35,607 nucleotides of DNA from an uncultured Bacilli bacterium (lineage in GTDB: Bacteria; Bacillota_I; Bacilli_A; RF39; UBA660), in the NCBI GenBank assembly GCA_947591575.1, contig CANQDI010000005.1, positions 1 to 35,607 of the forward strand. Reading direction: 5' to 3'. The position numbers and the translations under genes are program-made. The notes below the pieces were generated by a model. The model was not told the DNA's origin. It searched no databases and worked only from the letters and a program-made list of their open reading frames with translations. Of this stretch, positions 8,867 through 14,553 are shown in pieces. Position 1 is the stretch's first letter; each line of letters opens with the position of its first letter.

Positions 8867-10459
8867 CTATTTTTTCATTTTCCAATCAAAATAATCTTCA
8901 AAACGACATCTTTTATCTATTATCGTACCATTTTTTTGAAGTTCAATCACACGATTTGTCAAAGTTTCATTCAAAGTTAGATCTCTACTCGTAAAAATCA
9001 TTTCGCCTTGAAAATTTTCTAATCCTTTATTAAGAGATGTAATACTTTCTAAATCTAAATGATTTGTAGGCTCGTCTAAGAGTAGAAAATTAGGAGATGA
9101 TAACATACATTTACTAATCATGCATCGAGCTTTTTCTCCTCCTGATAAAACAGAGATATTTTTAAACACTTCTTCATTGGTAAAAAGCATTCTTCCTAGA
9201 AAAGAACGTAAATAAGTATTATCTTTTCCCTGATAAAAATTGCCAATCCACTCTATAATTGATTCATCTTTGGAAAAATAGGAACTATTATCCTGTGGCA
9301 AATAAGAAGAGACAATGGTTTTTCCAAAATGAATTTCACCCTTATCAAATTTTTCTATTCCAGCAAGAATATTCAAAAGTGTTGTTTTGGCTAAATCATT
9401 TTCTCCTAATAGAGCTATTTTATCCCCTTTTTGCAGGGTAAAAGAAATTTTATTTAATATCTTTTCTCCATCAACTATTTTCGTTAAATTTTTTACTTCT
9501 AAAATATCATTTCCACTACTTTTATCGATTTTAAAATCAATATAAGGATACTTTCTTGAAGATGGAACAATTTCATCTAATTCAATTTTTTCTAAGATTT
9601 TCTTTCTTGAAGTAGCTTGTTTTGATTTAGAAGCATTAGCGGAAAAACGATCAATAAAAGCTTGTAATTCTTTTATTTTTTCTTCTTTTTTACGATTTTG
9701 TTCCTTCATTTGTTTAAGAGCAAGTTCTCTTGATTGATACCAAAAATCATAATTACCTGCATAAATTTTCATTTTCCCAAAATCGATATCTATAATGTGT
9801 GTACAAACTTTATTTAAAAAGTGGCGATCATGGGAAACCACAACAATTGTATTTGGATAATCCATTAAAAAATCTTCTAACCATTTAATGGTTTCCATAT
9901 CTAAACTATTGGTAGGTTCATCTAAAAGCAAAATATCTGGATTTTGAAAAAGTGCTTGGGCAAGCAAGACCTTTACGCGCATTTTCGCAGATATTTCTTT
10001 CATTAAAAGGGTATGATAAGACTCATCGATTCCGAGACTTGAAAGCAATATTGCTGCATCAGGTTCCGCATTATATCCATCTAAGTCTTGAAATTCAGCT
10101 TCTAACTCGGCCATTTTCATATAGTCATCATCACTAAATATTGTTTGACAATAAAGTTTATTTTTTTCATCTATTACTTTCCATAATGCATCGTTTCCCA
10201 TCAAAACAACATCTAATACACGTATATCATCATAAGCATAATGATCTTGCTTTAAAAAAGAAACTCGTTCTTTTTTTCCAATCGTAATTTCTCCATGTGT
10301 CGTTTCTAATTCTTTGGTAAGAAGTTTTAAAAAAGTTGATTTTCCAGATCCATTGGCTCCAATTAATCCATAACAGGCACCTGAATTCAATTTTAAATTC
10401 ACATCTTCAAAAAGTGTTCTTTTTCCAAAGGTTAGTGTGACATGATCTACTTGAATCAT
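8867..10459 (-). CDS. ABC-F family ATPase (YbiT/YkpA-like), two NBDs
   Basis: 530 aa; NBD1 GANGSGKST...LLLDEPTNSLD, NBD2 GENDLAKTT...LSGGEKARCMISKCML...LLLDEPTNHLD; no TM segments. Confidence 0.9.
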   Translation of the reverse strand: MIQVDHVTLTFGKRTLFEDVNLKLNSGACYGLIGANGSGKSTFLKLLTKELETTHGEITIGKKERVSFLKQDHYAYDDIRVLDVVLMGNDALWKVIDEKNKLYCQTIFSDDDYMKMAELEAEFQDLDGYNAEPDAAILLSSLGIDESYHTLLMKEISAKMRVKVLLAQALFQNPDILLLDEPTNSLDMETIKWLEDFLMDYPNTIVVVSHDRHFLNKVCTHIIDIDFGKMKIYAGNYDFWYQSRELALKQMKEQNRKKEEKIKELQAFIDRFSANASKSKQATSRKKILEKIELDEIVPSSRKYPYIDFKIDKSSGNDILEVKNLTKIVDGEKILNKISFTLQKGDKIALLGENDLAKTTLLNILAGIEKFDKGEIHFGKTIVSSYLPQDNSSYFSKDESIIEWIGNFYQGKDNTYLRSFLGRMLFTNEEVFKNISVLSGGEKARCMISKCMLSSPNFLLLDEPTNHLDLESITSLNKGLENFQGEMIFTSRDLTLNETLTNRVIELQKNGTIIDKRCRFEDYFDWKMKK

Positions 10460-10470
10460 AAAATCCTCCT

Positions 10471-11076
10471 TTAAATTCGATAAAATATAGATATGAACTT
10501 GGCAAAGCGATATAAAATGATATTACTTTTATTAATGGCAAAACTTTTTCCAAGAGCTTTTCCACCAATGGTGAAAGCAGAAATCACACCTGTTACAATG
10601 AGCGTTGTAAAAAGTAAGTCAGAATGAAAACTTTTGATTAATAAAGCAGTAATGGTAATACCAGAAGCACCAGATACAATTCCACAAACATCACCTATTA
10701 CATCACAACAAAAACTAGATACCTTTTCTGAATTTTTTTTAAATAAAACTGCAACCTTCGCTCCTCGAACCTTTCTAGCACTCATTGAGTGAAAAATTTT
10801 TTCATCACTGGCAGTAACAGCAACACCAATAATATCAAATAAAATACCTAAAAAAACAAAAAAGAAAGTAATGAGAATACTAATCGGTAAGGTCGCCTTT
10901 TTGATGGTTGTTTCTGAAAAAAAAGATAAAACAAAAGAAAGACAAAATGCTATACCAAAAATCATGATAATCCATTTCCAATTTACAACATTTTTCTTTT
11001 TCTTTTCTTGCCTTCTTGTTTGTATTTCTAAATTACGTAATTCTTTTTTTGTTTTACTTTTTTCTTGACGATTCAT
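10471..11076 (-). CDS. Integral membrane protein resembling the CNNM/CorB transmembrane domain
   Basis: 201 aa; ILFDIIGVAVTASDEKIFHSMSARKVRGAKVAVLFKKNSEKVSSFCCDVIGDVCGIVSGASG resembles CNNM-type DUF21 segments; several TM helices. Confidence 0.6.
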   Translation of the reverse strand: MNRQEKSKTKKELRNLEIQTRRQEKKKKNVVNWKWIIMIFGIAFCLSFVLSFFSETTIKKATLPISILITFFFVFLGILFDIIGVAVTASDEKIFHSMSARKVRGAKVAVLFKKNSEKVSSFCCDVIGDVCGIVSGASGITITALLIKSFHSDLLFTTLIVTGVISAFTIGGKALGKSFAINKSNIILYRFAKFISIFYRI

Positions 11077-11231: not shown

Positions 11232-11257
11232 AAAAAAAGCAATTTTCTTTGCTTTTT
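11232..11257 (-). terminator. Intrinsic terminator of the candidate ncRNA
   Basis: Minus strand AAAAAGCAA-AGAAAA-TTGCTTTTTTT. Confidence 0.85.
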
Positions 11258-11850
11258 ATTTCTGATATCAATGGCTATCCTTTGGTAAACTTTGAGTCTT
11301 AGGTCAAGCAGGATTTCCCTCGTCTTTACGATACCGTTACCAATATCGCGGTTCCCCCTTTCGAAAAACGAATACAATCAGTATGGCTTGATCACCACTT
11401 AGTACCCACTGCAATCCCAAACGACATCACTCTAGGAGATTTCCTCACCAAGCTTTATTACTAATTCTTTTTTGCAGAAAAGATTTCATTATGCAGTTTA
11501 TTCAAGTAGGTTTGGCCAATCTACTGAATCAGCTCATAAATCCCAACTTTTCCACGCAAGACAAGCTACGCTACTCATAACTTTCGCCACAAAGTAGGTT
11601 CTACCTAAGTCGTAAATTATCCATCAGCATTATTCGCGTATAGGTAACTCACAAGATTAGGTCTCCAAGATAGTGGGATTCATCTATATGCCATTATAGA
11701 CTACCCATTATCTATACCTTCCAGCATCCACCCCAAACTGGGCGTAAGAAGCAAACACCAGAAGTTTCACAGATATGCTCTTTAACGGTGTTTTAATCCC
11801 GTCTTCGTAATAAAGAAATTGACTAGAATAGTGCGCCATTTCTATTACGT
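11232..11850 (-). ncRNA. Large (~620 nt) candidate structured RNA, class not identified
   Basis: No plausible CDS. Consensus promoter upstream, intrinsic terminator at the end. Pairings in fwd coordinates: 11838-11849/11806-11819, 11787-11792/11754-11759, 11704-11712/11669-11677, 11712-11717/11638-11643, 11329-11335/11342-11348. Confidence 0.75.
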
Positions 11851-11855
11851 GCTAC

Positions 11856-11884
11856 ATTATATCATATTCTAGACTGTTTGTCAA
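11856..11884 (-). promoter_or_regulatory. Sigma-A-type promoter for the candidate ncRNA
   Basis: Minus strand TTGACA (11884-11879), 17-nt spacer, TATAAT (11861-11856): exact consensus. Confidence 0.9.
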
Positions 11885-11937: not shown

Positions 11938-14553
11938 TTATACACTTTCTTTTCTTCCCCTACTTCGTAAATATATTTTTCGAATAAAATCGACGGGAAT
12001 AACAGACATCGATAAAATAAACATTTCTATAAATTCATGTACAGATAATCCAGCAGTTCGAAATAGATTTCCACCAAAATAGATGAGGATCATTTGAACA
12101 ATGATGATAAAGAAAATAGTAATAAGAAAAACAGGGTTTTCTAAAATACCAACAAACAAATTCAATCTGGGACTTCGGGCATTAAAACTATTAAATATTC
12201 CCATAAAGATAAATAAACCAAAGAAAGCTGTTAAAAAATATTTATCATCTGGAGCAATACGAAACATTTGATGAAAGAAAGGAAGTTTAAAGAAACAAAG
12301 ACAAAGGAAAGCAGAATAAAGACCTGTAAAGAAGATTTCTCCTAACATATACCGATTTAAAATGGGTTCATCACGTCGTTTTGGTTTTTCTAACATGTAT
12401 TCTTTTAAAGGAGGTTCATAGGCGAAAGCAAGTCCTGCTAAAGTATCCATTACCATATTTACCCAGAGCATCTGCATGACAGTAATAGGGGTTTCAATTC
12501 CTACAAATGGACCTACAATCGATAAAAAAATAGCACATAAGTTCATCGTAAGTTGAAAAATAATAAATTTACGAATACTTTTAAAAGTTGTTCTTCCAAA
12601 TAAAATTGCTTTCGTAATCGATAAAAAATTATTATCTAAAATAATGATATCACTTGCTTCTTTTGTAACTTCTGTACCACTTCCCATCGCAAATCCAACA
12701 TCTGCCTTTTTTAATGCAGGAGCATCATTGACACCATCTCCCGTCATTCCAACAACTAAATTCATCTCTTCACTTACTCTAACTAAACGACTTTTATCTT
12801 TTGGAAGTGCCCTTGCAATCACTCTTACTTTTGGTAAAATTTCTTTTAGTGTGTCATCATCCATCATAGACAATTTGTCACTTGTTAGTACAAGATCTTT
12901 GGTACTTTTTAAAATACCTACTTCTTGAGCAATCGAAGTGGCTGTTTTTTCATTATCACCTGTCATCATGACTACTTGAATCCCTGCATTTTGTACTTCT
13001 AAAACAGCTTCTTTTGATGTTTCACGAATTTCATCTTCTAAAGTCGCAAGAGCAATGAACGTCAAATTTGAAGGAAGACTGCCTTCTTTATAACAAATAG
13101 CAATCACTCTTTTTCCCTCACCTGCTAATTTTTCTAAAGTTCTCTTTAATTCTATATGCTTTTTCAAGGGAACAATCGTACCATCTTCCTTTAGGTATGT
13201 TTGACATTTTGGTAACAAAATTTCAGGAGCTCCCTTTATAAAAGTTACCAAGTGTTGATCTATCTTTACCGTCGTTAAAGCATATTTTTTGGTACTAGAA
13301 AAAGGATCTTCTTTCATGACTGGGTAACAATGCAACTTTTGATCATGAAAAAAAGATAATAATGCCCTATCTGTACTATTTCCTCCAATTAGTGTATGAT
13401 CAACTTCATCATGATTACAGCTATTATTTTCAAAAAGACTTGTTTTTAATGTCTCTAAATATTTAGGATAGGAAGAAAGAGCTTCTTCTGTCTCATATGT
13501 CTTAAAGTCTCCTGTTAAAAAGGATTTTACCTGCATATTTCCTTTCGTTAAAGTGCCTGTTTTATCCGTAAACAAAATATTTAAACTTCCTGCTGTTTCA
13601 ATTCCTACCAATCTTCTTACTAAAACATGATTCTTTAACATTCTTTTCATATTGGAAGATAAAACAAGAGTAACCATCATAGGAAGTCCTTCTGGAACAG
13701 CAACCACAATGATGGTAACAGCAAGTGTTAGAGCATATAAAATATTCCCCAAAAGTTGTGGAAAATCCATAAGAGAAGAAAGGATTAAATGTTTATCGAA
13801 ATGATTTGCAATAACATAAACAGAAAATAGATAAGAAAAAGCAACGAGAAGAGCACTGATATAGCCGATTTTACTAATGGTTTGAGCAAGTCCTCGTAAT
13901 CGTTGTTTTAGAGGGCTTTCCGGTGTTTTTTCAGAAAGTTCTAACGCTAATTTTCCATAAAATGTATTGACTCCAACAGTGGTCACTTCCATAACTCCTT
14001 CTCCCTGATAAATCACACTACCACGAAAAAGTTGATTTTTTCTCGTAATGATTCCTTCTTTTGGAATTTTATAACTTTCTTTACTTTCTCCACTAATAGA
14101 AGATTCATCAACTGTTAAATTACCATCCATTAAAATGCCATCTGCCGGAATTTTATCTCCATAGGATAAGAAAACAAGATCCCCTACAACCACTTCTTCC
14201 ACTGGTATTTCTATCATTCTGCCTTCTCGTATCACTTTTACTTTTATTTTACTGGATTCTGCTTGTAACTTTTCAAAAGCTTTTTCACTCCCATATTCAG
14301 AAATAGTAGAAATAAAAGATGCTAAGAAAATAGCAACAACGATTCCTACTGTTTCAAACCAATCAAAATCATGAATTAAAAAAACTGTTTTAATCCCTAA
14401 AGCAATTAATAAAATACGAATAATAGGATCCCCTAGACTTCTTAAAAATGCTTTTAAAAACGTTTCTTGTTGATGTGCTACAAGTATATTACTGCCGTAT
14501 TGTTCTCTTGATGTTTTTACTTCTTCTTGATTTAACCCTGACCATTTCTTCAT
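11938..14553 (-). CDS. Calcium-type cation-transporting P-type ATPase (PMCA-like)
   Basis: 871 aa; DKTGTLTKG, TGES-like SGES, TGDGVNDAPALKKADVGFAMGSGTEVTKEASDIIILDNNF, PEGLPMMVTL. Confidence 0.92.
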   Translation of the reverse strand: MKKWSGLNQEEVKTSREQYGSNILVAHQQETFLKAFLRSLGDPIIRILLIALGIKTVFLIHDFDWFETVGIVVAIFLASFISTISEYGSEKAFEKLQAESSKIKVKVIREGRMIEIPVEEVVVGDLVFLSYGDKIPADGILMDGNLTVDESSISGESKESYKIPKEGIITRKNQLFRGSVIYQGEGVMEVTTVGVNTFYGKLALELSEKTPESPLKQRLRGLAQTISKIGYISALLVAFSYLFSVYVIANHFDKHLILSSLMDFPQLLGNILYALTLAVTIIVVAVPEGLPMMVTLVLSSNMKRMLKNHVLVRRLVGIETAGSLNILFTDKTGTLTKGNMQVKSFLTGDFKTYETEEALSSYPKYLETLKTSLFENNSCNHDEVDHTLIGGNSTDRALLSFFHDQKLHCYPVMKEDPFSSTKKYALTTVKIDQHLVTFIKGAPEILLPKCQTYLKEDGTIVPLKKHIELKRTLEKLAGEGKRVIAICYKEGSLPSNLTFIALATLEDEIRETSKEAVLEVQNAGIQVVMMTGDNEKTATSIAQEVGILKSTKDLVLTSDKLSMMDDDTLKEILPKVRVIARALPKDKSRLVRVSEEMNLVVGMTGDGVNDAPALKKADVGFAMGSGTEVTKEASDIIILDNNFLSITKAILFGRTTFKSIRKFIIFQLTMNLCAIFLSIVGPFVGIETPITVMQMLWVNMVMDTLAGLAFAYEPPLKEYMLEKPKRRDEPILNRYMLGEIFFTGLYSAFLCLCFFKLPFFHQMFRIAPDDKYFLTAFFGLFIFMGIFNSFNARSPRLNLFVGILENPVFLITIFFIIIVQMILIYFGGNLFRTAGLSVHEFIEMFILSMSVIPVDFIRKIYLRSRGRKESV

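Follow-up and report, generated by a model that had tools for sequence, protein, structure and literature searches.

The analysis of a 35,607-nt stretch of DNA (hereafter the window) led to a locus that is best explained, at a probability of about 0.93, as an ole gene with its partner gene oapA, whose particle appears to be a slim one. The RNA is an OLE RNA, oapA lies next to it and is inherited together with it, its contact loops and kink-turn are conserved, and the OapC and MpfA families are absent from the host. The features of the locus are as follows.

11856 to 11884, minus strand: ole promoter TTGACA-N17-TATAAT (12/12 match; conserved in relatives)
11255 to 11855, minus strand: OLE RNA, RF01071, full model length (Rfam match, alignment, covariation)
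11661 to 11773, minus strand: P5-P6 region with kink-turn strands AUC-UGU-GA (J4a/5) and GGAGA (J6/7) and the L5/L6 kissing-loop sequences GCCCA and AUGGCA (alignment, pair count, comparison of relatives)
11571 to 11661, minus strand: P7 (11661-11604) and P8 (11597-11571), both present (alignment, pair count)
11465 to 11562, minus strand: P9 with palindromic UUGGCCAA loop (alignment, pair count, relatives)
11372 to 11384, minus strand: hairpin of reduced length, assigned as P13, without the OapB-binding tip (alignment, relatives)
11232 to 11257, minus strand: intrinsic terminator-like hairpin and T run (sequence, loose hairpin scan)
10471 to 11076, minus strand: gene assigned as oapA (OLE-associated protein A), for a predicted CNNM-like membrane protein of 201 aa (co-occurrence, adjacency, weak CNNM profile hits, fold match)

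When the whole window was scanned with the covariance models of Rfam 15, a single match exceeded the gathering score, that to RF01071 (OLE), which covers positions 1-616 of the 616-position model and 601 nt of the window (minus strand, 11855-11255) with a score of 348.1 bits and an E-value of 6.9e-99, the gathering score being 50. The original prediction had placed here, at the correct coordinates and with no strand given (it is the minus one), a large, structured, independently transcribed non-coding RNA of unidentified class, and had named OLE, ROOL and GOLLD as known RNAs of this kind. The general description was borne out by the promoter, the covariation, the indels and the lack of a conserved ORF; the class could not stay unidentified, because one Rfam search gives OLE along the entire model, with a bit score some seven times the one required for gathering. 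That the RNA belongs to OLE, a known class, is practically certain. The size and architecture of the window RNA, and the failure to assign a class from the sequence alone, might have suggested an unprecedented kind of large ornate RNA or membership of ROOL or GOLLD, which are likewise large and ornate, but this is hardly conceivable, given that OLE, at full length and 348 bits, is the only Rfam match of the window, that neither ROOL nor GOLLD has a match anywhere in the 35,607 nt, and that the OLE partner gene adjoins the RNA. Housekeeping RNAs, which the original prediction had also considered, did not appear either, as the same scan gave no match to RNase P or tmRNA. The window RNA is a somewhat shortened OLE variant, an ordinary member of its class and not a new one.

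The promoter, predicted to match the consensus exactly, does so at all 12 positions (minus strand, 11884..11856) and is the sole perfect match within 4 kb; 34 of the 53 OLE loci have a promoter with at least 11/12 matches immediately ahead of OLE. At the other end, a 9-bp terminator stem (11257-11249 / 11242-11234, loop 11248-11243) is followed by a T run to 11232. This terminator is real, although the term "textbook" overstated it: the stem holds only two G-C pairs, and it was overlooked by the default hairpin scan and picked up by a looser one, which also detected a terminator-like hairpin 3' of OLE in 24/53 OLE loci. From the inferred start to 11232 the transcript measures about 618 nt, in agreement with the proposed length of about 620 nt. 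The claim that no credible ORF is present was likewise upheld. The only ORF of at least 60 aa touching the RNA on the minus strand is a 60-aa TTG ORF, no ORF is conserved, and the RNA is considered non-coding because same-genus homologues differ by indels of 1, 2, 3 and 5 nt. Since ole in the window has its own consensus promoter and terminator-like hairpin, it looks monocistronic, whereas in Halalkalibacterium halodurans it is part of a polycistronic operon (PMC12265935).

The secondary structure was evaluated by counting the Rfam pairs on an alignment of OLE sequences from relatives, 45 in number and all distinct, which share 61-92% identity with the window copy; column shuffles and pairing partners slid by 1-3 columns served as controls. 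In the window sequence itself, 138 of the 152 aligned Rfam consensus pairs are standard. Across the 45 sequences the share of paired cells was 82.2%, versus 71.2% after shuffling and 39-49% after sliding, the covariation score was 0.368 versus 0.173 and at most 0.130, respectively, and both sides had changed in 106/152 pairs. As the pairs came from the Rfam structure, projected on the window sequence, some lean towards it is expected, but the gap to the controls is far larger. Covariation support for the OLE structure is very strong, the real pairs standing far above both controls. Among the helices drawn beforehand, GATAATGGG/CCCACTATC corresponds to P6, CTACTT/AGTAG to P8 and CGATATT..GGTATCG to the 3' hairpin, while AACACC/GGTGTT cuts across two supported helices and the consensus contains no GTATAG/CTATAC pairing. 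The proposed 5' hairpin (11806-11849, minus strand) lies outside the Rfam OLE structure, yet 26/45 relatives allow a helix of 5 bp or more at the same place, a count made without a chance control.

At the level of sequence, the window RNA carries the RNA-dimer contacts UUAAAAC (A-rich L4), GCCCA and AUGGCA (L5-L6) and UUGGCCAA (L9), the last being the palindromic P9 loop that forms a dimer contact in published structures (PMC12286853, PMC12265935). Among the 45 OLE sequences, the P5 loop GCCCA is kept in all, the P6 loop AUGGCA occurs in 39 with the remainder one base off, and a GGCC core is found in P9 in 35. In the same set, and again as sequences, the kink-turn strands hardly vary, with C-UGU-GAA in J4a/5 and UGGAGAC in J6/7. 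Because the cryo-EM structure of protein-free OLE has a kink-turn formed between J4a/5 and J6/7 (PMC12286853), and because these strands are kept without OapC, an architectural role of the kink-turn is suggested. In one relative (L009, genome G035) the J4a/5 bulge and J6/7 GGAGA were lost together, leaving OLE without both kink-turn strands, and this joint loss fits their pairing. A loss of kink-turn 1a was considered and rejected: its J5/6 strand at first seemed broken, but a one-base shift restores a UAUC/GAUA pairing, and in most relatives a usable strand is kept.

Two parts of the consensus are missing from the window RNA, a hairpin of 12 nt that follows P9 and 8 nt of the tip of the presumed P13, a label that follows published helix naming; P7, P8 and a long P9 are present. 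The P13 tip GGURAC is missing in 15/45 OLE sequences, including the whole window genus, and the GGUAAC loop of P14 is almost invariant. The OapB-binding P13 tip is often missing in OLE variant 1 (PMC11332333); it is not universal in OLE, and its absence is not decisive for membership. With full-length OLE from H. halodurans and Clostridium acetobutylicum, the window RNA shares the full model length, the P3-P9 domain with its dimer contact loops, the kink-turn strands J4a/5 and J6/7, the conserved 3' domain and an oapA gene directly downstream, and it differs from them in having neither the 12-nt hairpin after P9 nor the P13 tip. With OLE variants 1 and 2 of RF39/TANB77 (PMC11332333) it shares reduced-genome uncultured gut hosts and the lack of OapC. 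The truncated OapB-binding hairpin is common to it and variant 1, and its 348 bits fall within the variant-1 band, which was set on a different model; variant 2, common in RF39, has neither P7 nor P8, whereas the window RNA has both. Six relatives from the same family as the full-architecture OLE (L021-L025 and L092) carry short OLE RNAs of 495-541 nt and 227-262 bits, which appear to be variant 2, without P7/P8 and the J6/7 GGAGA.

The next gene downstream, on the same strand and about 160 nt past the terminator, has an intact reading frame for a 201-aa protein. An AlphaFold2 model built from a 30-sequence alignment (pLDDT 84, pTM 0.71) was searched with Foldseek, and all five top PDB matches were CNNM/CorB/CorC Mg2+ transporters (probability 0.99-1.00; weak E-values of 8e-3 to 0.7). 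Sequence searches against PDB gave nothing useful, so that the fold search alone was informative there; matches to the CNNM profile were weak but recurrent (12/30 members). OapA has been described as a relative of MpfA's CNNM domain (PMC11332333). OLE lies upstream in 31 of the 33 OapA loci of named MAGs, two of the 31 being cut by a contig end. As for the two exceptions, the OapA match of L059 starts at base 1 of its contig, and in L031 (1-760) a different gene precedes oapA with no OLE adjacent. In the host family, OLE and OapA were each found in 24 of the 37 genomes, and the only two discordant genomes are due to contig ends. The linkage to OLE, the CNNM fold match and the weak recurrent CNNM hits, together with the published relation of OapA to CNNM, led us to take the gene as oapA, with high confidence. 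Its product is predicted to be a CNNM-like membrane protein and the partner of OLE, which would bind the RNA.

The RNA could instead be the long structured 5' leader of oapA and control that gene in cis, with no action in trans. In favour of this, oapA is the next gene, a short way past the terminator, and about half of the scanned OLE loci show no clear terminator separating the two genes. This reading is very unlikely, as a terminator separates ole from oapA in the window, G008 has the two on different contigs (C3 and C12), G009 has them at a distance of 1.2 kb, and the MAG of L031 has oapA without an adjoining OLE. In H. halodurans, moreover, OLE acts in trans according to the literature.

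Three neighbours of ole are conserved in relatives: a gene for a glucosaminidase, oapA and a gene of the ABC-F type. In the window, the last of these encodes a 530-aa ABC-F family ATPase downstream of oapA (8867-10459, minus strand), a neighbour of ole-oapA conserved in many relatives, for which a link to translation is possible. Immediately upstream of ole, and there in the window alone, is a gene for an 871-aa PMCA-type Ca2+ P-type ATPase (11938-14553, minus strand); this ATPase was rejected as an OLE partner, since it is not beside OLE in relatives, even within the genus. In one relative (L049, 8564-9265) Rfam matches revealed a group II intron downstream of ole-oapA.

The host genome comprises 0.95 Mb in 73 contigs and is 95.9% complete, and the 37 genomes of its family span 0.8-1.7 Mb and come mostly from the gut. 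Among the named relatives are MAGs from goat, reindeer, rumen and other gut-type sources, together with isolates that carry the label Lapin; their records place them in Bacilli, Erysipelotrichaceae or Tenericutes. The host probably belongs to the GTDB order RF39. The L7Ae family PF01248, which holds OapC (YbxF), was found in none of the 37 family genomes and in 21 of the 23 class-mates. The gene of the KOW protein OapB (YbzG), which we take to lie between map and infA in B. subtilis (ybzG), was not found at this site, the only one checked, where an 8-nt gap separates map from infA; class-mates also have no gene there, which keeps the gap from proving that OapB is missing. Compared with H. halodurans, the host is without the OapC family, and OapB was not found at the map-infA site. 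It does encode bS21. In a wider phylum sample, which sought OapC-bearing OLE hosts, OLE was found in 3/195 genomes, all of the same family. In one genome (G029) a full OLE is accompanied by another OLE copy that differs from it and is truncated at a contig end (L026, C3:70010-70394; L005, C14); this additional copy may be foreign because the MAG is estimated to be 4% contaminated. It was published in 2024 that OLE RNAs of RF39/TANB77 are shortened and mostly occur without OapB and OapC (PMC11332333); OLE in these reduced-genome clades is already on record, and the window locus is an expected example.

A reduced genome might also harbour a decaying OLE relic whose function is gone. The lost hairpins, a score below that of full-length OLE, the absence of the OapC family, the failure to find OapB at the map-infA site and the occurrence of OLE-less members within the family all point that way, but the RNA is about 88-92% identical within the genus, with compensatory changes, and the promoter is perfect, the oapA frame intact and the contact loops invariant. 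Decay is an even less likely account than a cis-acting leader.

The CorC_HlyC domain PF03471, the C-terminal domain of MpfA, was found neither in the host genome nor in any of the 37 family genomes, while 20/23 class-mates have it, which fits at the family level the reported anticorrelation by which OLE-bearing species are without MpfA (PMC11332333). OLE was absent from 12 family genomes, even with more permissive filters, and a full CNNM protein (431 aa) occurs in just one of the 12, G019. Since OLE and a full CNNM transporter are both missing from the other 11, eight of which reach a completeness of 90% or more, a simple OLE-for-MpfA swap does not describe the family, and the replacement model is strained. 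All 12 OLE-less family genomes, G006, G010, G011 and G024 among them, are also without OapA. Incomplete assemblies or other exporters are possible explanations of the genomes with neither OLE nor CNNM. As relatives without OLE and OapA have no MpfA, the function is dispensable in them or is replaced by something other than MpfA.

Published work on other species suggests how the particle would operate. The RNA would be made from its own strong promoter and fold as a homodimer through the A-rich L4 contact, the L5-L6 kissing loops and the L9 palindrome, and the dimer would dock on OapA, a CNNM-like membrane protein, giving a membrane-bound RNA-protein particle that would regulate the handling of divalent ions (Mg2+) and related stress adaptation. 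In the host lineage this particle would be slimmed to OLE and OapA, plus bS21. Binding, localisation and phenotype are projected from those species, the dimer contacts and the partner being conserved here in sequence and predicted fold. Whether the main job of the particle is OapA-dependent control of ions and stress as in H. halodurans is, in our estimate, about an even bet. This function is weakened by the lack of OapC among the three H. halodurans partners, by OapB not being found at the one site and by the weak Foldseek E-values (best 8e-3). An equally balanced proposition is that the minimal device consists of the RNA and OapA, that the kink-turn would serve architecture without OapC, and that OLE would have been lost without uptake of MpfA, so that the exclusivity of the two would break down.

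Few bacterial RNAs with an unsolved biochemical role are as large as OLE. A stripped-down OLE in genomes of about 1 Mb helps to define the core, namely RNA domain 1, the dimer loops, the kink-turn and OapA, and the same setting marks OapC and the P13 tip, and in relatives also P7/P8 and P9, as optional parts. The residual value of the locus lies in this minimal-partner setting and in its OLE-less, MpfA-less relatives.
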